From Bacteroidales bacterium (GTDB lineage: Bacteria > Bacteroidota > Bacteroidia > Bacteroidales > GCA-2748055): a stretch of 64,000 bases of DNA. Every line of letters starts with the position of its first letter. Position 1 is the stretch's first letter. The translations under genes were made by a program, and so were the position numbers. Under the pieces are notes generated by a model. The model searched no databases and was not told the origin of the DNA. It saw only the letters and a list, made by a program, of their open reading frames with translations. The stretch spans positions 186,001 to 250,000 of the forward strand of contig JARGFP010000002.1 of NCBI GenBank assembly GCA_029210585.1, written 5' to 3'. Shown piece after piece: positions 8,205-52,855 of this stretch.

Positions 8205-9983
8205 TTATAAGGCAAACTGCAGCTCGCTGAGGTTTCTGTATACGCCGTGTTCGAGGCTGATCAGTTCTTCGTGGGTGCCGGTCTCAGCGATACTTCCATG
8301 CTCAAGGACCACGATCTGGTCTGCATTTCTCACAGTGGAAAGCCGGTGTGCAATGACAATGGAGGTACGTCCTTTCATCAGCTTTTCCAGTGCATCCTGT
8401 ACCAGTTTTTCTGATTCAGAATCCAGGGAAGAAGTGGCTTCATCGAGAATAAGCACACGAGGATCCTTCAGCACCGCCCGTGCGATGGCGATCCGCTGGC
8501 GCTGTCCGCCCGATAACTGTGTACCACGTTCACCCACCAGTGTGTCAAGTTTTTCAGGAAAGCGCATGATAAATTCCATTGCATTGGCTTTATCAGCAGC
8601 TTCAATGATCTCTTTTTCTGTTGCCCCCGGTTTCCCATAGGCGATATTTTCCCTGATTGTTCCTCCGAACAGGAAGATATCCTGCGGCACCAGGGCAATC
8701 TGTTTCCTCAGACAGGAAAGAGCATACTGGCTTGCCGGGCGTTCATCGAACAGGATCGTACCGGTGGAAGGATGGTAAAAACTGAGCAAAAGGGAGGTAA
8801 TGGTTGATTTGCCGGCACCACTTGGTCCGACCAGGGCGGTCATTTGGTTGGCAGGGATGGTGAGATCAATGGTGTCCAGGACCTTTTCTTCCATTCTGCC
8901 AGGATAGGAAAAGGAAACATTTTCGAAACGGATCTGTCCATGGATCTCCTGGTCGCCACAAACCATCTCGATGGTCTCGATCTCTTCGCCCTCTTCTTCA
9001 AAGATTTCAAACAGGTCTTCGGTGGCTCCCAGGAACCGTTGGATCTGGGTGAACACATTGGCGAGTCCCCCGATGGTCCCCCCGATGAACCCGGAATAAA
9101 GTACGAAGGAGAAGAGCTGACCGGCATCGATTTCACCTGCAGCCAGCAGTGTGGACCCTTTCCATATCACGGCAACCAATGCACCAAACAATCCGAAAAT
9201 CAGGAAAGATGAAAAAGCGCCCCGATAGCGGCCGCTCTTGATACCGATGCGGGCAATTTCCAGGGTTTTGCTCCGGTACCTGCTGATTTCCCGGGGTTCA
9301 TTGGTATAGGCCTTCACACTTTTGATCCCCTGCAGGGTCTCTTCAACCACCGTATTTGAATCTGCCACCTCTTTCTGGGCTTTTTTTGAGAGGGAGCGGA
9401 TGAATCTCCCAAAGAAAACGCTCATTAAGACTACAGCAGGAATGATCGCAAGCATGAACAGTGTGAGCCGGCCCGATGTGATCACCAGCAGGGTGATTCC
9501 TCCCACGATGATGATGATCTGCCGTATAAATTCAGCCAGCGTGGAGGTCATGGTCTCCTGGAGCAGTGCAATATCGGATGAGATGCGGCTGTTCAGTTCA
9601 CCAACGCGGCGTTTGTCGAAGAAGCTGAGGGGCAATTTGATCAGATGATTATAGGTCGCCTGCCTGAGATCAGCCAGTGCGCTTTCAGAAACCTTTACGA
9701 ACAGGAAAACACGGAAATAAGAGAAGGTTGCCTGTATGATAAGCACCCCGGCCAGGATGAGGGCGATGCGATTGATGTTTTCTCCCAGGTTTCCATCGTT
9801 GCCTGCACTGAACAGGTCGCCCAGCAATTTTGGAAATGCCAGGCTGGCAGAGCTTGATCCCAGCAGGAAGAGCAGTCCCAGGCCATACTGCCAGCGATAG
9901 GGCCGAATGTAACTGAACAGGCGTGCCGCTTCTTTGAGGCCGGTAAGGGTGATCTTTTTCTTTGGCACGTCGCTTTTGCCCAT
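8205..9983 (-). CDS. ABC exporter, fused permease and ATPase (MsbA/BmrA-like)
   Basis: The 592-residue half-transporter has a type 1 exporter membrane domain (about residues 20-330, six helices) followed by the nucleotide-binding domain. Walker A GPSGAGKST lies near residue 385, signature LSGGQRQRIAIARA near 490, Walker B VLILDEATSSLD near 512, and the H-loop IAHRLS near 547. It should work as a homodimer, moving a lipid, peptide or drug outward using ATP. The substrate cannot be assigned; the best guess is a lipid or drug, as for MsbA/BmrA relatives. The gene stands alone, with a 116-nt gap to the VOC gene. Confidence 0.9.
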   Translation of the reverse strand: MGKSDVPKKKITLTGLKEAARLFSYIRPYRWQYGLGLLFLLGSSSASLAFPKLLGDLFSAGNDGNLGENINRIALILAGVLIIQATFSYFRVFLFVKVSESALADLRQATYNHLIKLPLSFFDKRRVGELNSRISSDIALLQETMTSTLAEFIRQIIIIVGGITLLVITSGRLTLFMLAIIPAVVLMSVFFGRFIRSLSKKAQKEVADSNTVVEETLQGIKSVKAYTNEPREISRYRSKTLEIARIGIKSGRYRGAFSSFLIFGLFGALVAVIWKGSTLLAAGEIDAGQLFSFVLYSGFIGGTIGGLANVFTQIQRFLGATEDLFEIFEEEGEEIETIEMVCGDQEIHGQIRFENVSFSYPGRMEEKVLDTIDLTIPANQMTALVGPSGAGKSTITSLLLSFYHPSTGTILFDERPASQYALSCLRKQIALVPQDIFLFGGTIRENIAYGKPGATEKEIIEAADKANAMEFIMRFPEKLDTLVGERGTQLSGGQRQRIAIARAVLKDPRVLILDEATSSLDSESEKLVQDALEKLMKGRTSIVIAHRLSTVRNADQIVVLEHGSIAETGTHEELISLEHGVYRNLSELQFAL

Positions 9984-10099
9984 GGTTTCCTTGTATTTCG
10001 TTCAATTAAACAATCGGCAGTAGGAAGAGTTCAGCTACGAGGGAAATGCTTGTATGGATAAAACTACCGGGAATTTTATCCTATCAATGGTTAAGAAAT

Positions 10100-10630
10100 C
10101 TAATCATTATAATGTTCCAGCAGTTCAATAATCAAGGCGAGGTCCTTGCTTCCGTCCAAATAGGCATATTCTCCTGTTCCCCAACCTCCATGTTGCACTT
10201 CCGGTATTCCGTGGTTATCAAAATTCTTAACTGCTGCATCCATGTCTTTCACGTTAAAGGCAATATGGTGAATGCCCGGTCCGTTCGTGTCCAGGAACTC
10301 TTGCCAGGTGCTGGGCTTCCCGTCAGGTTCAATGAGTTCAATGGTGATGTTGTCCAATTGGAAGAAAGCGAGTTTTGCAGTTGCATCCGTTGCATTTCCC
10401 CTGTATGCTGTTGGTTTGGATGCATGGCCGGATGCAATACTGACAGCAGGCACTTCTTCAAGTCCGAGTAGGGCGGCCCAGGCTTTTGCAGCGGATTCAA
10501 TATCTTCAACAATAATGCCTACCTGGGTCATTTTTTTCTCCGGGATGAGTTCTTTTTCCAACGGATTATTCAATGACAGTCCGAGGAAGAAGAAACTTGC
10601 AGCGATAATAACGACGAATGTTTTTTTCAT
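10100..10630 (-). CDS. Exported VOC-family (glyoxalase-like) protein
   Basis: The protein has 176 residues from the ATG at 10630, chosen because it begins a clean signal peptide (MKKTFVVIIAASFFFLG); an alternative start at 10654 adds eight residues. The remainder is a vicinal-oxygen-chelate fold with paired beta-alpha-beta-beta-beta modules: TQVGIIVEDIESAAKAWAAL at about residue 35, ITIELIEP in the middle, and GIHHIAFNVKDMDAAV in the second half. The pattern resembles methylmalonyl-CoA epimerase or lactoylglutathione lyase relatives, but an exported form argues against those functions. The specific reaction is unknown. Confidence 0.75.
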   Translation of the reverse strand: MKKTFVVIIAASFFFLGLSLNNPLEKELIPEKKMTQVGIIVEDIESAAKAWAALLGLEEVPAVSIASGHASKPTAYRGNATDATAKLAFFQLDNITIELIEPDGKPSTWQEFLDTNGPGIHHIAFNVKDMDAAVKNFDNHGIPEVQHGGWGTGEYAYLDGSKDLALIIELLEHYND

Positions 10631-10835
10631 GATTTCTAAGTTTTTCTTTTCCACAATATAGCAGTTTAATATGGAAGAATAAAGTCTTGTGTTGCTGTAT
10701 CCGGGCGTCCCTTTCAGACTGTCTTTCGGAGAAAAGACCCAGCTGCTGTATTGCGGTTCTGGCTTCTGATCAATGTTTTAACAAGTTTTTGGTGGCAGGC
10801 TGGGAATTGTCTTTTTAGCGTAAAAATTCAACATG

Positions 10836-11417
10836 TTATGAGAATAACTGTATCCCTCTGGAGGCCAGGAAGACCAAGATACTTACATGCGTCAGATCTC
10901 CAATGATGATCACGAGGTTAAGCCTGGTCTGCGGGTATTTGAGCGTTGCCAGGAAAATCAGCAACCAGTCATTGGGCAGTGGCAGGAAACTGATATACAC
11001 ATAAGAGATCAGGGGAATCCGCTTTTCAAGGTTGTGTTTCCTGAAGTAGTTGGCAAGCTGGTTGATTCTCCTGTCCACTTTTCCGCGTATCAGGTCGCGG
11101 CCCTTGTGACCAAAATAAAAAAGAAACATGTCGCCCAGGGCAAGGCTGGTTCCTGTGATCACTGCAAGCAATACAGGATTCAGTCCTGCTGCAAGGCTGG
11201 CAATGAGCAGGCTGTAAAATGAAACAGCTGTAAAGGCTGAAAAACCGGCGAAGAAAGCAATCACAAAGGCAATGATATAACCATTCCGCCTGCCTATGCT
11301 TGCGATGATTTCATCTGGATTGTATATGGTACCGACCGCAAACAGGGTCAGCACGACGATGGCCATAAAAATAAAAGCAATGGTTCTCCTGGTCCTTTTT
11401 TTTCTTGTTGCTTTCAT
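10836..11417 (-). CDS. Small-residue-rich integral membrane protein, DedA/VTT-like
   Basis: About 193 residues from the preferred start MKATRKKRTRR at 11417; a start at 11432 is also possible. After a basic N-terminus come four or five membrane segments. The central region GLNPVLLAVITGTSLALGDMFLFYFGHKGRD resembles the conserved half of VTT/DedA-type proteins (a G-x3-G-D helix followed by G-x-K/R). The segment YVYISFLPLPNDWLLIFLA matches the proline-containing re-entrant part. DedA proteins are thought to move undecaprenyl phosphate or phospholipid. The family assignment is moderate. Confidence 0.65.
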   Translation of the reverse strand: MKATRKKRTRRTIAFIFMAIVVLTLFAVGTIYNPDEIIASIGRRNGYIIAFVIAFFAGFSAFTAVSFYSLLIASLAAGLNPVLLAVITGTSLALGDMFLFYFGHKGRDLIRGKVDRRINQLANYFRKHNLEKRIPLISYVYISFLPLPNDWLLIFLATLKYPQTRLNLVIIIGDLTHVSILVFLASRGIQLFS

Positions 11418-11432
11418 TATGCGGTAATGCAA

Positions 11433-11754
11433 ATAGACGGGTTCCCTGCAAAATTGGTTCTGCCTGGTTGCGTGATTAGACTGATGTTTTTTACCATGAT
11501 GATCTGCCTGGTCCGTTTTTATGTTCTTGCCCGGGTATGTTGGATGACAATTTAATGGGGCGAAATATACGAAAAAAGGGGTATCCGGAACAAATCATTG
11601 ATTAACAAACAATTTCCGTACCCCAATTAAAAAGGAGAGCGCCGGATCAATTCACCGATGCTCTCCCTGTTATCTGTGCGTTCATTTTAACGTGGCGGCA
11701 CTTTTCCATATGCGCTCATGCTTGCATGAACGTTTTTTATTACCAGTGAAAGGG
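11433..11754. other. Intergenic stretch, no gene seen
   Basis: Between the DedA-like and YceI genes, both minus strand, 322 nt show no convincing ORF. An inverted repeat at about 11712-11733 is followed by a T-run on the plus strand, but no plus-strand gene ends there. A loose GGAGAGC/GCTCTCC pair lies near 11635-11667. Confidence 0.5.
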
Positions 11755-12279
11755 TCACTGCCTGATGAACTGGACATCAATGACCAGCTTTACAGTATCT
11801 GATACAACTACATTCCCTGCTTCCGTAACGGCACTCCATTTCAGACCAAAATCTTTGCGATTGATCTCTCCCGTGAGTTCAAATCCTGCTTTCGTCTGTC
11901 CGTAAGGATCCACGGCAATACCATTGAAATCTGCTTCCAGTGATACTTCTTTTGTTACATCCCTGATGGTCAGATCGCCCGTAAGAATGCCATTCTTGAA
12001 CGAGGTGGATGTAAAGACCATTTCAGGGAATTTTTCGGCATTGAAAAAGTCATCTGATTTCAGGTGCGTATCCCTGTCGCTGTTCTTGGTATTTACAGAG
12101 CCGGTATCAATGCTGACTTCAATTGCAGCATTGTTGAAATCATCGCCATCCGTTTCAGCTGTTGCGTTGAAATTTTCAAAATATCCGGTTACGGTTGAGA
12201 TCATCATGTGTTTTACTTTGAATGAGACCTCAGAATGTGATGCATCGATCACCCATTTGGTTGTGTTTTCTTTTTTCAT
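11755..12279 (-). CDS. YceI-family lipid-binding-like protein
   Basis: The 174-residue protein covers a full YceI domain. It opens with WVIDASHSEVSFKVKHMMISTVTGYFENF, the family signature, continues with SVNTKNSDRDTHLKSDDFFNAEKFPEM, and ends with GEINRKDFGL and VKLVIDVQFIR. YceI proteins form a lipocalin-like barrel that binds isoprenoid-type ligands. This copy has no signal peptide and begins MKKENTTKW, so it appears cytoplasmic. It lies 25 nt downstream of the pirin gene and is probably in the same transcript; YceI-pirin pairs are common in Bacteroidota. Confidence 0.93.
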   Translation of the reverse strand: MKKENTTKWVIDASHSEVSFKVKHMMISTVTGYFENFNATAETDGDDFNNAAIEVSIDTGSVNTKNSDRDTHLKSDDFFNAEKFPEMVFTSTSFKNGILTGDLTIRDVTKEVSLEADFNGIAVDPYGQTKAGFELTGEINRKDFGLKWSAVTEAGNVVVSDTVKLVIDVQFIRQ

Positions 12280-12304
12280 ATTGTTTTCTTTTGTGTAATT
12301 AACA

Positions 12305-13021
12305 TTATTGGTACTGCATCGGGATCTCCATCAGCAGTACCCTTGCATCCGTTCGTGCAATAAGTTCAATACCTGCGGTGTCCCAGATGCCATATCCATC
12401 ACGCTGATCCAGTTCCTGTTCGCCTGCTGATATTTTACCTTCCAGTACGAAAATGTATATGCCGTTTCCTGCTTTTTTAATTTTGTAAGCTGTCGCTGAA
12501 CTTTTGCTGAAACTGCCGATATGCATCCAGGCATCCTGATGGATCCATGCACCCTGGCTTTCAGGATCGGGGGATACCACCCGGGTAAATTCGTTATTCT
12601 TTTCCAGTGCTGTAATGGTTACCTGGGCGTAGCGCGGGGCCACGTTTTTTTCCCGAGGAAATATCCAGATCTGCAGGAATTTCACTTTCCTGTCCTTGTT
12701 GTGGTTGTATTCACTGTGGAATATTCCGGTTCCTGCACTCATTACCTGCACGTCACCCTGCCTGATAATTTTCTTATTGCCCATATTGTCCTGGTGTTCC
12801 AGGTCACCTTCGAGTGGTATGGAAATGATCTCCATGTTGTCATGCGGATGCAGTCCGAAACCTTTGCCAGGGGCCACGGTATCGTCGTTAAGCACGCGCA
12901 GGGCTCCAAACTGTACCCTTTCCGGATCGTAATAATTCGCAAAACTGAATGTATGGTAGGAGTTTAGCCAGCCATGGTCGGCATGACCCCGTGTACCCGC
13001 TTTATGTAATGTGGTTTTCAT
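12305..13021 (-). CDS. Pirin-family bicupin protein
   Basis: The 238-residue protein matches YhhW-type pirins. The N-terminal cupin carries the metal ligands in GFGLHPHDNMEIISIPLEG and GIFHSEYNHN (His, His, His, Glu). The C-terminal cupin (about residues 135-236) is degenerate, as usual. The start is fixed by MKTTLHKAGTRGHADHGWL, a typical pirin opening. Family members act as redox-sensitive nuclear or cytoplasmic regulators or quercetin dioxygenases; here the role is unknown. It precedes the YceI gene by 25 nt, and the AraC regulator upstream is a candidate controller. Confidence 0.92.
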   Translation of the reverse strand: MKTTLHKAGTRGHADHGWLNSYHTFSFANYYDPERVQFGALRVLNDDTVAPGKGFGLHPHDNMEIISIPLEGDLEHQDNMGNKKIIRQGDVQVMSAGTGIFHSEYNHNKDRKVKFLQIWIFPREKNVAPRYAQVTITALEKNNEFTRVVSPDPESQGAWIHQDAWMHIGSFSKSSATAYKIKKAGNGIYIFVLEGKISAGEQELDQRDGYGIWDTAGIELIARTDARVLLMEIPMQYQ

Positions 13022-13170
13022 TGTTATGGTTCCTTTTTTTTGTGTCGACCGGCTCCGGTTTGTAGCGGAATTGCCGGCTGCCTGTATAGTAAAAGAAATA
13101 CAGATGCAAATATCCGTAAAATATACAGTGTCATAAATATGAAATTTCGGGGAAGGCTTATGAAAATCCG

Positions 13171-14067
13171 TTACCTTACACTTTCCCGGAAAGTGGTAGG
13201 AGCGTAACCGGTCTCCTTTTTAAAGAAAGCGCTGAAATTGCCCGGTTCGCTAAAACCAAGGGCGTAGGCAATTTGCTTTGCTGCATGGTCGGTAAAGCAA
13301 AGCATCCTTTTCGCAGCAAGAATAATTCTTTCCTGGATATATTCTTTTGCACTTTTGCCGAGCAGTGAACGGATGACCCTGTTGAGGTGGTCGGGTGTAA
13401 CATTAAGCATTTCAGCGTATTCGGAGGTTGAATGGAACTCGGTATAGTGTTGTTCCACGAGTTTTTTGAAATTACGCAATATGGTATTCCCGGCTTCCTG
13501 TCGTTGTGGATGATCCAGGTCCAGCGTACAGAGGTTGTTGCTTTTGATGAGGAATAGTTTGAGACAGGCACCAATGGCAAGGTTTCGGAATTTGATCGTG
13601 GATGCACTGAGTCGTATCATCTCTTCGCTGATTTCAGAGAGTTGGTTCATTTCCTCTTCCCTGAGTTGCATCGGCGGTGTATCGCTGTAGGTGTTGAACA
13701 GGTTGATATCTTCCAGGAAACCCACCGGAATATTGTTCTCAACGAGGAATTCAGGAGAGAAAAGGACCGCATATCCCACCGATCGTTTGCGTTCGATTAC
13801 CTGGTGGACCTGCCCCGGACTGATAAAGAACAATTGATGTGTACCAAGAGCATAAGCGTTGAAATCAATGATGTGCTGGCCGTCTGCATTCCTGACAAGC
13901 AACACGGTATAGTAATCATGGCGGTGGGGTTGATCGGGCTTGCCGGACCGACTGTCGTAGATGTCTTCCATCCTGGAAATCCTGAAGGAGACCTGCTCGT
14001 CGGCATGCTGCACGTGGCTGTATTTCTTTATGGCTTCCATCTCTTCAAATTTAGTAAAAAACCACAT
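13171..14067 (-). CDS. AraC-family transcriptional regulator
   Basis: The 298-residue protein has an N-terminal cupin-like sensor domain (PHRHDYYTVLLV at about residue 47, FFISPGQVHQV at about 80) and a C-terminal double HTH (about residues 195-298). The second HTH contains QIAYALGFSEPGNFSAFFKKETGYAPTTFR in family-typical form. The first HTH includes YAEMLNVTPDHLNRVIRSLLGKSAKEYIQ. A shorter start at 14040 (MEAIKKYSH) is equally plausible. The gene points toward the pirin-YceI pair on the same strand, 149 nt away, so it may control those genes. The ligand is unknown. Confidence 0.9.
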   Translation of the reverse strand: MWFFTKFEEMEAIKKYSHVQHADEQVSFRISRMEDIYDSRSGKPDQPHRHDYYTVLLVRNADGQHIIDFNAYALGTHQLFFISPGQVHQVIERKRSVGYAVLFSPEFLVENNIPVGFLEDINLFNTYSDTPPMQLREEEMNQLSEISEEMIRLSASTIKFRNLAIGACLKLFLIKSNNLCTLDLDHPQRQEAGNTILRNFKKLVEQHYTEFHSTSEYAEMLNVTPDHLNRVIRSLLGKSAKEYIQERIILAAKRMLCFTDHAAKQIAYALGFSEPGNFSAFFKKETGYAPTTFRESVR

Positions 14068-48576: not shown

Positions 48577-48714
48577 GATCCACGGGGAATGCCCTGCCGC
48601 CGGAATGGAACTTTGCGGTAGTGATCCACGGGGAATGCCCTGCCGCCGGAATGGAACTTTGTGGGGGTGATCCATGGGGAATGTACTGCCGCCGGAATGG
48701 AACTTTGTGGAAGC
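48577..48714. repeat. Three 46-bp tandem repeats between plsC and the sigma remnant
   Basis: Units start at 48577, 48623 and 48669, each with GATCCACGGGG or close variant, and continue through GCCGCCGGAATGGAACTTTG. Period is exactly 46 nt. The first two differ at one or two bases; the third at a few more. A partial fourth GATCC begins at 48715. The period is not a multiple of three, so a coding role is unlikely. Confidence 0.95.
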
Positions 48715-48745
48715 GATCCTTGCTGAACGCAGTGTTTGCTATCGT

Positions 48746-48806
48746 TGCTGCTGATATATATATAAATATTTATTAAAATAGTTATATAAATATATATATT
48801 CAAATA
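48746..48806. other. AT-rich stretch upstream of the sigma remnant
   Basis: About 60 nt almost purely A/T with TATATATATAAATATTTATT and similar runs. It lies between the 46-bp repeats and the sigma-factor ATG. It may carry an old promoter or a DNA-unwinding region; no specific motif is assigned. Confidence 0.5.
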
Positions 48807-48843: not shown

Positions 48844-49308
48844 ATGACACCTGCAAAGGAGATGCATATGACGGGAGAGATGGACAAAACTGCTTTTGAG
48901 GCGGTTTTCAGGAAGTTTTTCCCGGCGCTGATGGCCTTTTCCCTGAAGTACCTGCCCGACGAGGACGATGCCCGCGAGGTGGTGCACAACGTATTCATCA
49001 ACCTGTGGGAAAAACGGGCTTCGCTCGATACATCCTCATCCCTGAAATCGTACCTGTTTACCGCCGTGCATAACCGCAGTCTGAATGTACTCCGCGACCG
49101 CAGGAAATTTGCTGATGAGGCCATGCCTGAGATCTCATCGGAGGAGGATATTCATGCATAGGTTGAGGCAACAGAACTGGAGGAGCGGATTGCGGAGGTG
49201 ATTGCGGAATTGCCGGAGAAATGCCGTGAGGTATTTGAACTGAACAGGTTCGGGAGGTTCAAGTACGGTGAGATTGCCGACAAACTTGGTATTTCCGTTA
49301 AAACAGTG
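48844..49308 (+). pseudogene. Decayed ECF RNA polymerase sigma factor
   Basis: From ATG 48844 a FecI-like sigma factor starts (MDKTAFEAVFRKFFPALMAFSLKYLPDEDDAREVVHNVFINLWEKR, region 2). An in-frame TAG at 49159-49161 stops it after 105 residues (ISSEEDIHA), but the same frame continues at once with region 4: VEATELEERIAEVIAELPEKCREVFELNRFGRFKYGEIADKLGISVKTV. The region 4 match ends abruptly at about 49308, where a different sequence begins. A full sigma factor would need roughly 30 more residues. Thus both a nonsense codon and a 3' truncation are seen. Confidence 0.85.
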
Positions 49309-49310
49309 AT

Positions 49311-49394
49311 TTCTATACCACGCCGGAGCTGGTCCCGACGCAGTTTTACCTCTACAGCATCGTTCCTTCTATCAGTTATCATTTCAGTTTGTAA
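49311..49394 (+). pseudogene. C-terminal remnant of a TonB-dependent receptor
   Basis: Right after the truncation of the sigma factor, another plus-strand frame reads FYTTPELVPTQFYLYSIVPSISYHFSL and stops at 49392-49394. This is typical of the last strands of a TonB-dependent outer-membrane receptor (aromatic SxxYxF end). No start or other part of such a receptor is nearby. The junction at about 49308 therefore looks like a deletion that removed the rest of the sigma gene, any FecR gene and most of the receptor. Confidence 0.6.
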
Positions 49395-49395
49395 C

Positions 49396-49866
49396 ATGAG
49401 GAGAAGCACCCTACATATTATTCGACAGTTCCAACTTCCTTTCTTCGCTATCCTTTTTTTGTTTCCTTCCTGCCAGGAGAAGGTCGAATGGGAGCTGGAA
49501 TATGAGAATACGTTGCGGCTCGTGGTGGAGGGAAAGATCACCAATGAGCGCCGTGCCCACGAGGTGAAATTGTCCTTGCCGGTCTACGAAATCAACGGCA
49601 CACCGCGGCCTGTGAGCGGTGCAGAGGTGTTTATTTCAGACGGTGATACGGTTATCAGTTTGCAAGAGGATCCTGGCAGGGCTGGCATATATCTGACTCC
49701 CCGGAATGTGCAGGGGGTGGTGAACAAAACCTATCTGCTGCTGGTACGGGTGAATGATTTTGAATGCACTGCTGTTGCGCGGATGGAAGGGGTGACGCCG
49801 ATCCGGTTCCCAACAACGTACCTGGTAAGGCAGGAGTCTGCGCTTTATGAATTACGGTTCACGTGA
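49396..49866 (+). CDS. Truncated DUF4249-like lipoprotein
   Basis: The 156-residue protein begins two nt after the receptor remnant (MRRSTLHIIRQFQLPFF), with a lipoprotein signal (SCQEK). EYENTLRLVVEGKITNERRAHEVKLSLPVYEINGTPRPVSGAEVFISDGDTVI matches the first half of DUF4249, which usually runs to about 300 residues or more. The ORF ends with ALYELRFT at 49866 after only about 150. DUF4249 proteins normally sit downstream of TonB-receptor genes, as here. It may be non-functional. Confidence 0.65.
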   Translation: MRRSTLHIIRQFQLPFFAILFLFPSCQEKVEWELEYENTLRLVVEGKITNERRAHEVKLSLPVYEINGTPRPVSGAEVFISDGDTVISLQEDPGRAGIYLTPRNVQGVVNKTYLLLVRVNDFECTAVARMEGVTPIRFPTTYLVRQESALYELRFT

Positions 49867-49919
49867 AATGATGCACCTTCCATGATGAAGCTGGAAATTT
49901 TTCGCTTTTCGGACCAGGC

Positions 49920-51584
49920 TTAGAAAAGACCTGAAATATTACCTTCCGTGTCGATATCGAAATTTTCTGCAGCGGGCCTGGCTGGAAGTCCGGGCATCCG
50001 CATAATATTGCCAGTAATGGGAATAACGAATCCCGCTCCTGCAGCAATTTCGATCTCCCGTACGGTGACGATAAAATCCTTGGGCCGGCCCAGGAGCGCG
50101 GGATTGTCTGAGAGCGATTTCTGTGTTTTGGCGATACAAACGGCCAGGTGGTCGAGTCCCAGGTCCTTGATCTTCTTCAGGTCCTGTTTCGCCTTCAGGG
50201 TATAGTCGATGGCCTTTGCACCATAGATTTCCCTGGCGATGGTCTCAATCTTCTTCTCCGTGGACCAGTTCCAGTCGTAGAGGGGCCGATAGGTAGTATT
50301 GTTTGCTTCCACTACCTGTGCAACTTTCTCTGCAAGGTCGAGCGCTCCTTCACCGCCTTTGGCCCATACTTCAGCAACAGAGGCTTGCACGCCCAGTGAT
50401 TCAGCATGGTCGAGGATGGCCTGGATTTCCTCGTCCTCATCAGTTTTGAATCGGTTGATACCGATCACGCAGGCATCGATAAACTTATGGATGTTTTCCA
50501 CGTGCTTGTCGAGGTTCACCAGCCCTTTTTTCACCGCGGCGACATTGGGATGGTTCAGATCTTCCACCGGAACACCACCGTGGTATTTCAGTGCCCTGAC
50601 GGTTGCAACGAGGACCACTGCCCTGGGATTCAACCCGGCTTTCCTGCATTTGATGTCGAAGAACTTTTCGGCGCCCAGGTCGAACCCGAAGCCTGCTTCT
50701 GTCACCACGTAATCGGAAAGACTGAGTCCCATGCGCGTGGCAATGACCGAGTTGGTTCCCTGCGCGATGTTGGCAAAGGGTCCCCCGTGGATAATGGCCG
50801 GATTTCCTTCCAGGGTTTGTACGAGGTTGGGTTTGATCGCATCCTTCAGGAGCACAGCCATGGCTCCCTGTGCCTTCAGGTCGCGGGCATATACCGGTTT
50901 TTTGTCGTAGGTATACCCGATAAAGATATTTCTGAGGCGTTTTTTCAGATCGGTCATGTCATCGGCAATGCAGAGGATGGCCATGATCTCCGATGCGGCG
51001 GTAATATCGAAACCGGTTTCACGGGGTACTCCTGAAGTGGTTCCCCCCAGTCCGATGATGGCCCGGCGCAGTGCCCGGTCGTTCATGTCCATCACGCGCT
51101 TCCAGTTGACCGTTCGCGGATCGATGCCAAGTGAATTGTTCAGGCTCTGCAGGTTATTGTCAATCAGTGCGGCCAGCAGGTTGTGGGCCTTCTCGATGGC
51201 CGAAAAGTCGCCTGTGAAATGCAGGTTAATGTCTTCCATGGGCACCACCTGTGCATATCCGCCCCCGGTGGCACCCCCCTTGATGCCGAATACCGGTCCG
51301 AGGGAAGGTTCGCGGAGCACTACGGTAGCCTGTTTGTTCAGCCGGTTCAATCCCTCCGAGAGCCCGATCGACATGGTGGTTTTTCCTTCCCCGGCGGGGG
51401 TGGGGGAGATCGCAGAGACCAGTACCAGGTGTCCCTGTTTCTCTTTTTCGGTGGTAAGCCTGAGGGGCAGTTTCGCAATGTGTTTTCCATAGGGATGCAG
51501 GTAGCCGGGTGAAATATCCAGTTTGGCAGCAACCTCTTCAATGTGCAGCATGGGTGATTTTCGGGCGATATCGATGTCGGTCAT
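49920..51584 (-). CDS. fhs: Formate--tetrahydrofolate ligase
   Basis: The 554-residue protein makes 10-formyl-tetrahydrofolate from formate and THF with ATP. P-loop SPTPAGEGKTTMSIGLSEGL is at about residue 60. LREPSLGPVFGIKGGATGGGYAQVVPMEDINLHFTGDFSAIEKAHNLLAA is highly conserved. Further marks are MDMNDRALR, GETGFDITAASEIMAILC (as PRETGFDITAASEIMA), TRMGLSLSDYVVTEAGFGFDLGAEKF, and the end NIMRMPGLPARPAAENFDIDTEGNISGLF. The minus-strand stop at 49920 is 54 nt from the convergent DUF4249 remnant end. A TACATTTG (51610-51617) upstream may be its -7 element. Confidence 0.97.
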   Translation of the reverse strand: MTDIDIARKSPMLHIEEVAAKLDISPGYLHPYGKHIAKLPLRLTTEKEKQGHLVLVSAISPTPAGEGKTTMSIGLSEGLNRLNKQATVVLREPSLGPVFGIKGGATGGGYAQVVPMEDINLHFTGDFSAIEKAHNLLAALIDNNLQSLNNSLGIDPRTVNWKRVMDMNDRALRRAIIGLGGTTSGVPRETGFDITAASEIMAILCIADDMTDLKKRLRNIFIGYTYDKKPVYARDLKAQGAMAVLLKDAIKPNLVQTLEGNPAIIHGGPFANIAQGTNSVIATRMGLSLSDYVVTEAGFGFDLGAEKFFDIKCRKAGLNPRAVVLVATVRALKYHGGVPVEDLNHPNVAAVKKGLVNLDKHVENIHKFIDACVIGINRFKTDEDEEIQAILDHAESLGVQASVAEVWAKGGEGALDLAEKVAQVVEANNTTYRPLYDWNWSTEKKIETIAREIYGAKAIDYTLKAKQDLKKIKDLGLDHLAVCIAKTQKSLSDNPALLGRPKDFIVTVREIEIAAGAGFVIPITGNIMRMPGLPARPAAENFDIDTEGNISGLF

Positions 51585-51778
51585 AGCTGTTGGAATTTGT
51601 ATTTACCAACAAATGTAGCCAAAAAAGTAAAATTATTTAAAAACGGATAGGGGTAACCGGCAGGGGCAGGTGTGCTATTACTGAACGCTGGAAAATGTGA
51701 GAACAGAAAAAAAGAAGTTCAGAATTAATAACTAAAAAATCAGAAATCAAGAAAAAGTTAAGTTTTATTTCAATCGCA

Positions 51779-52855
51779 GTGTTTTTTGCCAGTGCATTAT
51801 TTTTCACATCATGTGAAAAAGATCCGTTCCAGGGAGGAACCGACACCGGTATCCTGCCCGAAAAATTCTCTGTGGATATTCCTGATGCCATATCACAGGA
51901 TGTGACCTTGAAGAAGAGCCTGGCCGTTGATACCCTGAAGGGCAATCATGTCTACAGTCACCTGCGTTTCTTTATCAGGGTAGGAGAATCAGCAGGCGAG
52001 ATCGTTGAAGGAATTATCAGGGCGATCAGCGTATATGATATTGACCGCATCAAAACGCTATCTTATGAAAGTGCGGAAGATGGCAGGATCAAGAATGTCG
52101 TGGTTGTGGAAGCGCCGGAGTATGAAGACCAGCTGTGGGATTATGGTCTGACGCTTACGGATGCCGAATCGGAAGTCAACGAAGATGGCGGCAAGGGGTT
52201 GCAGATTTTCTGGAATGAAAACCCCCGTGCAGGTGTTGCATTGCTGAAGCCTTACAACATTAACAGGAAAGATGATGCGCTGCTGGGCGAGGCCATGTTC
52301 AGGGTAGATTACAGTGAAGCGGGGGAATTCGGATACGATGCGCATATGATTGTCTCCATTGCTGACCTTCCTGCCATTGATCCGTTGCTGGAGCCCTTTG
52401 CGATGAATGCAATGAAAATGTTTGTCGGCAAGAAAGCGGATAAAGTGGATGTATACGGAAATTCAAGTCATCCCAATGCCAAGCTGCTCACCACCACCAC
52501 CGGTTACAACTGGGCCTTTGTTGCCAGTGCGGAGACAGGTCGTGATGTTGCCGCTGCAGAGGTGGGGCTTCCGCTGAGTACGCTTGATGCCACCGGGAGG
52601 GAAGTTCTGCTGGAGGAATATTCCATTAAGCATGTGTTTACCAACGAGGTTCTGACCGTATGGTCCAATGCCAGCCAGGAGCGTCTGAATGCATGGCTGA
52701 CCAATACTGAGGCCCCCGGGTATTTCGACGGAAATGGTTTTGTCCAGGGAGGAACCATGCCAGGCGAGGCGTACACTGAAGTTTCGGAACGGTTACTTGG
52801 TCTCTCCCCTTATAATCCCAAGTCCATTGCCAATCTCGAGATCTTATTCAACTAA
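51779..52855 (+). CDS. Lipoprotein of unknown function; start unclear
   Basis: The gene as usable from GTG 51779 (VFFASALFFTSCEKD) has 358 residues with a lipobox at TSC. The frame is open upstream to 51701 and includes a proper positive N-region (IKKKLSFISIA) before the hydrophobic core, which suggests that translation begins upstream, perhaps at ATC 51746 or another rare start; no ATG, GTG or TTG is present. The mature part has alternating strands and loops (RFFIRVGESAGEIVEGIIRAISVYDIDRI, EAMFRVDYSEAGEFGYDAHMIVSI) and no motif that I recognise. A strong terminator follows. Confidence 0.7.
   Translation: MFFASALFFTSCEKDPFQGGTDTGILPEKFSVDIPDAISQDVTLKKSLAVDTLKGNHVYSHLRFFIRVGESAGEIVEGIIRAISVYDIDRIKTLSYESAEDGRIKNVVVVEAPEYEDQLWDYGLTLTDAESEVNEDGGKGLQIFWNENPRAGVALLKPYNINRKDDALLGEAMFRVDYSEAGEFGYDAHMIVSIADLPAIDPLLEPFAMNAMKMFVGKKADKVDVYGNSSHPNAKLLTTTTGYNWAFVASAETGRDVAAAEVGLPLSTLDATGREVLLEEYSIKHVFTNEVLTVWSNASQERLNAWLTNTEAPGYFDGNGFVQGGTMPGEAYTEVSERLLGLSPYNPKSIANLEILFN

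Follow-up and report, generated by a model that had tools for sequence, protein, structure and literature searches.

Gene remnants in the window

The window analysed here is a stretch of 64,000 nucleotides from a Bacteroidales draft genome (contig JARGFP010000002.1, positions 186,001–250,000, designated G000:C39; the genome is referred to as G000), and on its forward strand, downstream of plsC, it carries parts of an ECF sigma factor gene, a TonB-dependent receptor gene and a DUF4249 lipoprotein gene in close succession. The first part, at 48844–49158, encodes the N-terminal portion of a FecI-like sigma factor including region 2 (Sigma70_r2, E = 2.4e-11). It is interrupted at 49159–49161 by an in-frame TAG nonsense codon, at a position where the orthologue of the related genome G003 has a Gln codon, after which the linker and most of region 4 follow in the same frame at 49162–49307. 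The Sigma70_r4_2 match covers profile positions 2–43 of 54, so that region 4 is truncated before the recognition helix ends, and homology to G003 (positions 9398–9471) stops at 49307. The sigma remnant is 70% identical to the intact orthologues of both G003 and a second relative, G008.

The bases that follow, 49308–49394 on the same strand, encode the final 28 codons and the stop codon of a TonB-dependent receptor in a frame other than that of the sigma factor. This tail reads DFYTTPELVPTQFYLYSIVPSISYHFSL, compared with NFYLPPELTPTQLYIYSVIPTVSYHFSF in G003. Its assignment rests on both DNA and protein matches: when the receptor C-terminus was searched against the six-frame translation of the window, the tail was the top match with a score of 111, the best unrelated place scoring 39; the tail is recovered with an E value of 1.6e-5 in a protein search of the whole genome; and a 77-bp DNA alignment at the colinear position shows 79% identity.

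A single nucleotide separates the receptor stop codon from the ATG of the DUF4249 gene (TAA, C, ATG), and the spacing is identical in G003. The open part of the DUF4249 remnant (49396–49863, forward strand) begins with a lipobox-like signal sequence and matches PF14054 with an E value of 5.2e-7, covering positions 2–98 of 269. Its identity is 62% to the intact G008 orthologue and 55–57% to that of G003. Alignment with the orthologue places an in-frame TGA (49864–49866) within the DUF4249 homology, which resumes for a short distance after it (NDAPSMMKLE, 49867–49896) and is then lost. About 110 C-terminal residues that are present in G003 are gone in the window. Paralogues are left elsewhere in G000: nine further genes for DUF4249 proteins and numerous TonB receptors.

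The intact operon in related genomes

The genomes used for comparison include G001, G002, G003, G008 and G006. In G003, which belongs to the same genus (contig 225, locus L033), and in G008, which belongs to another genus of the same family (contig 42, locus L034), four intact genes occupy the same chromosomal site in the order sigma factor, FecR, TonB receptor with an STN domain, and DUF4249. The proteins of the G003 operon match Sigma70_r2 and Sigma70_r4_2; FecR and FecR_C; STN, Plug and beta-barrel; and DUF4249 in Pfam, the STN match having an E value of 1.7e-5 and lying under the Pfam gathering score. The upstream flank of both relatives matches that of the window and consists of what we take, from reading the sequence, to be a topoisomerase subunit gene, a methyltransferase-like gene and plsC; names of flanking genes other than fhs are assigned in this way rather than by family search, and a Pfam scan of two of the flanking genes returned no match. 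On the downstream side, the orthologue of window 51779–52855 lies directly 3′ of DUF4249 in G003, and two additional genes lie between them in G008.

In a third genome of the genus, G002 (L047, G002:C126), the operon is absent beside plsC and a glycoside-hydrolase-like gene is found instead. Since G002 lacks the operon at this position, the site has been altered more than once within the genus. DNA resembling the locus was sought in plasmids and none was found.

Extent of the central deletion

Alignment with the G003 operon, whose coordinates are given on the reverse complement of L033, locates the deletion junction at 49307–49309: window position 49307 corresponds to G003 position 9471 and window position 49309 to G003 position 13231, base 49308 being assignable to neither side. 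The G003 sequence without a counterpart in the window, 9472–13230, amounts to 3759 bp (∼3.76 kb) and comprises the end of sigma region 4, all of FecR, and all of the receptor except 28 codons. The starts of sigma and DUF4249 are 552 bp apart in the window vs 4310 bp in G003, and the two distances thus differ by 3758 bp. Judged on the two orthologues, the flanks of the junction share no repeat or microhomology.

No relocated copy of the missing block was found elsewhere in the assembly. A FecR orthologue was found neither at the locus nor in the whole assembly, where the best match has 28% identity, at the level of a paralogue; similarly, no receptor orthologue was found across the G000 assembly, the best other match having 42% identity, again at paralogue level. 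The window copy therefore has neither a sigma factor with complete regions 2 and 4, nor a FecR anti-sigma gene, nor a receptor with STN domain and barrel, of which only the 28 codons are left.

These results bear out the initial annotation, which had the sigma match stopping in region 4 at about 49308, the last strands of a receptor following in another frame and a truncated DUF4249 gene after them, and which read the arrangement as a sigma-FecR-receptor-DUF4249 locus reduced to its edges by one internal deletion. The comparison with intact loci that it had proposed, carried out on L033 and L034, reveals exactly the inferred loss, with flanking synteny kept. That earlier account is nonetheless incomplete, though not wrong, in that the sigma gene and DUF4249 each contain a nonsense codon as well, and that a further rearrangement has cost DUF4249 its 3′ end.

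The second breakpoint and the neighboring fhs gene

The second breakpoint lies near 49896, where the end of DUF4249 is lost and the remnant abuts an intact formate-tetrahydrofolate ligase gene, fhs, on the reverse strand (49920–51584; PF01268, E = 4.1e-259). For this breakpoint only, the chances are about even that fhs inserted here and thereby cost DUF4249 its 3′ end, the alternative being a deletion that moved an already neighboring fhs up to the remnant. In favor of insertion, fhs is absent from G001, G002, G003 and G008, including from the plsC/operon site of the last two, and in G003 the gene that lies beyond fhs in the window directly follows DUF4249. Against it stands G006, a member of a different genus in the family, where 11 kb separate fhs from plsC and the orientation is the same; this hints that fhs was linked to the neighborhood of this site long ago and was lost from the other genomes. 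The genes between fhs and plsC in G006 (L076, G006:C19:12000-31900) are quite different from those in the window, and the layout suggests a site of gene turnover with an old link to fhs.

The lipoprotein-like gene that follows fhs has an orthologue with 82% identity in G003. Where the G003 gene starts with ATG, the window has AAG at 51749–51751; the next common start is a GTG at 51779, whose use would shorten the signal peptide.

Probable pseudogenization of the operon

Relatives have the operon intact at the corresponding position, and the window copy bears inactivating lesions; the locus is very probably a pseudogenized ECF-sigma/FecR/TonB-receptor/DUF4249 operon. One deletion by illegitimate recombination would have taken out the middle of the operon and a second event, beside fhs, would have taken off its end, with the point nonsense mutations arising either after or before the deletions. 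The remnant locus would then be without sigma, anti-sigma or transport function, although the frame at 49162–49866 could still yield a residual peptide.

Identities between the remnant and G003 (70% for sigma, 55–57% for DUF4249) are about the same as those between the intact genes of G003 and G008 (73% and 55%, respectively). Because the remnant is no more diverged than the orthologues are among themselves, the decay is recent compared with the split, and most of the divergence accrued while the genes were functional. A branch-specific dN/dS codon model applied to the remnant branch with three taxa found synonymous sites to be saturated.

An alternative is that the 3.76 kb block is present in the organism and was dropped by the assembler. 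G000 is indeed a draft of 116 contigs, but no orthologue of the receptor or of FecR turned up anywhere in the assembly, separate contigs included, and a DNA search of G000 returned no second copy of the junction-side sequence, leaving no repeat on which the assembly could have collapsed. An artefact would also leave unexplained the TAG upstream, the TGA downstream and the cut at fhs. Because the junction region is single-copy and three further lesions lie alongside it, a misassembly is unlikely, and those three lesions all point to genuine decay of the operon.

It is more improbable still that the deletion created a functional protein by joining sigma region 4 to DUF4249 in the open frame 49162–49866: a frame of 234 codons is indeed open from past the TAG to the TGA (ORF 49198–49866), but what links the two parts is the receptor tail translated in the wrong frame, G003 also has a chance open frame 5′ of DUF4249, region 4 lacks the end of the recognition helix, and the DUF4249 domain is down to about one third of its profile. 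The initial annotation had named an intact homologous fusion in other species as evidence that would count against a deletion; none was seen among the relatives examined, and in other relatives of the family and order the nearest sigma and DUF4249 matches lie ∼4.2–5 kb apart on one contig. Expression of this region as a sigma-region-4/DUF4249 fusion peptide (49162–49866) with a residual role, for example the titration of a partner that belongs to the paralogous systems, is just as improbable.

Relation to known systems

In the established FecIRA scheme (review PMC9249621), the substrate-bound receptor signals through FecR to the sigma factor and thereby switches uptake on. The ancestral-type locus of G003 and G008 resembles FecI-FecR-FecA loci in having an ECF sigma factor, a FecR anti-sigma factor and an STN-bearing receptor in the same order, whereas the window copy differs in retaining part of sigma, 28 receptor codons and no FecR. 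By analogy with this scheme, the intact operon should be a cell-surface-signaling uptake system that activates itself in response to substrate binding at the receptor; the receptor, through its STN domain, would signal via FecR to release sigma, and would work together with the DUF4249 lipoprotein.

A DUF4249 protein has been reported as the partner of its TonB receptor in the BT2172/BT2173 pair of Bacteroides thetaiotaomicron, and such receptor-DUF4249 pairs are described as an operon conserved across dozens of genera, with similar consequences whichever of the two genes is lost (PMC11003636). The window copy resembles these pairs in that DUF4249 immediately follows the receptor, but differs in that both genes are truncated. 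Ordinary bacterial pseudogene remnants likewise show an internal deletion, nonsense codons, truncated ends and intact orthologues in relatives, and there is no notable difference between them and the present locus.

The locus is thus a clear but ordinary case of operon decay. It offers a clean, well-anchored snapshot of the loss of a self-regulated uptake operon, and otherwise exemplifies the routine turnover of genes at a variable position beside plsC. The remaining open reading frames should be annotated as pseudogenes, and the labels sigma factor and DUF4249 lipoprotein should be avoided for them.

Sequence upstream of the sigma remnant

A GC-rich unit of 46 bp is repeated in 3.1 tandem copies with 90% matches at 48577–48719, in the interval that separates plsC from the sigma gene fragment. 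Apart from a 21-bp match, the repeat is confined to this single locus in the genome, and it is absent from G001, G002, G003 and G008. Its candidacy as a dispersed element driving the deletion was rejected, given that it occurs at a single locus and lies ∼590 bp from the junction. The AT-rich stretch at 48754–48806 is probably of low complexity, and similar short stretches occur elsewhere in the genome of the window and in G003.
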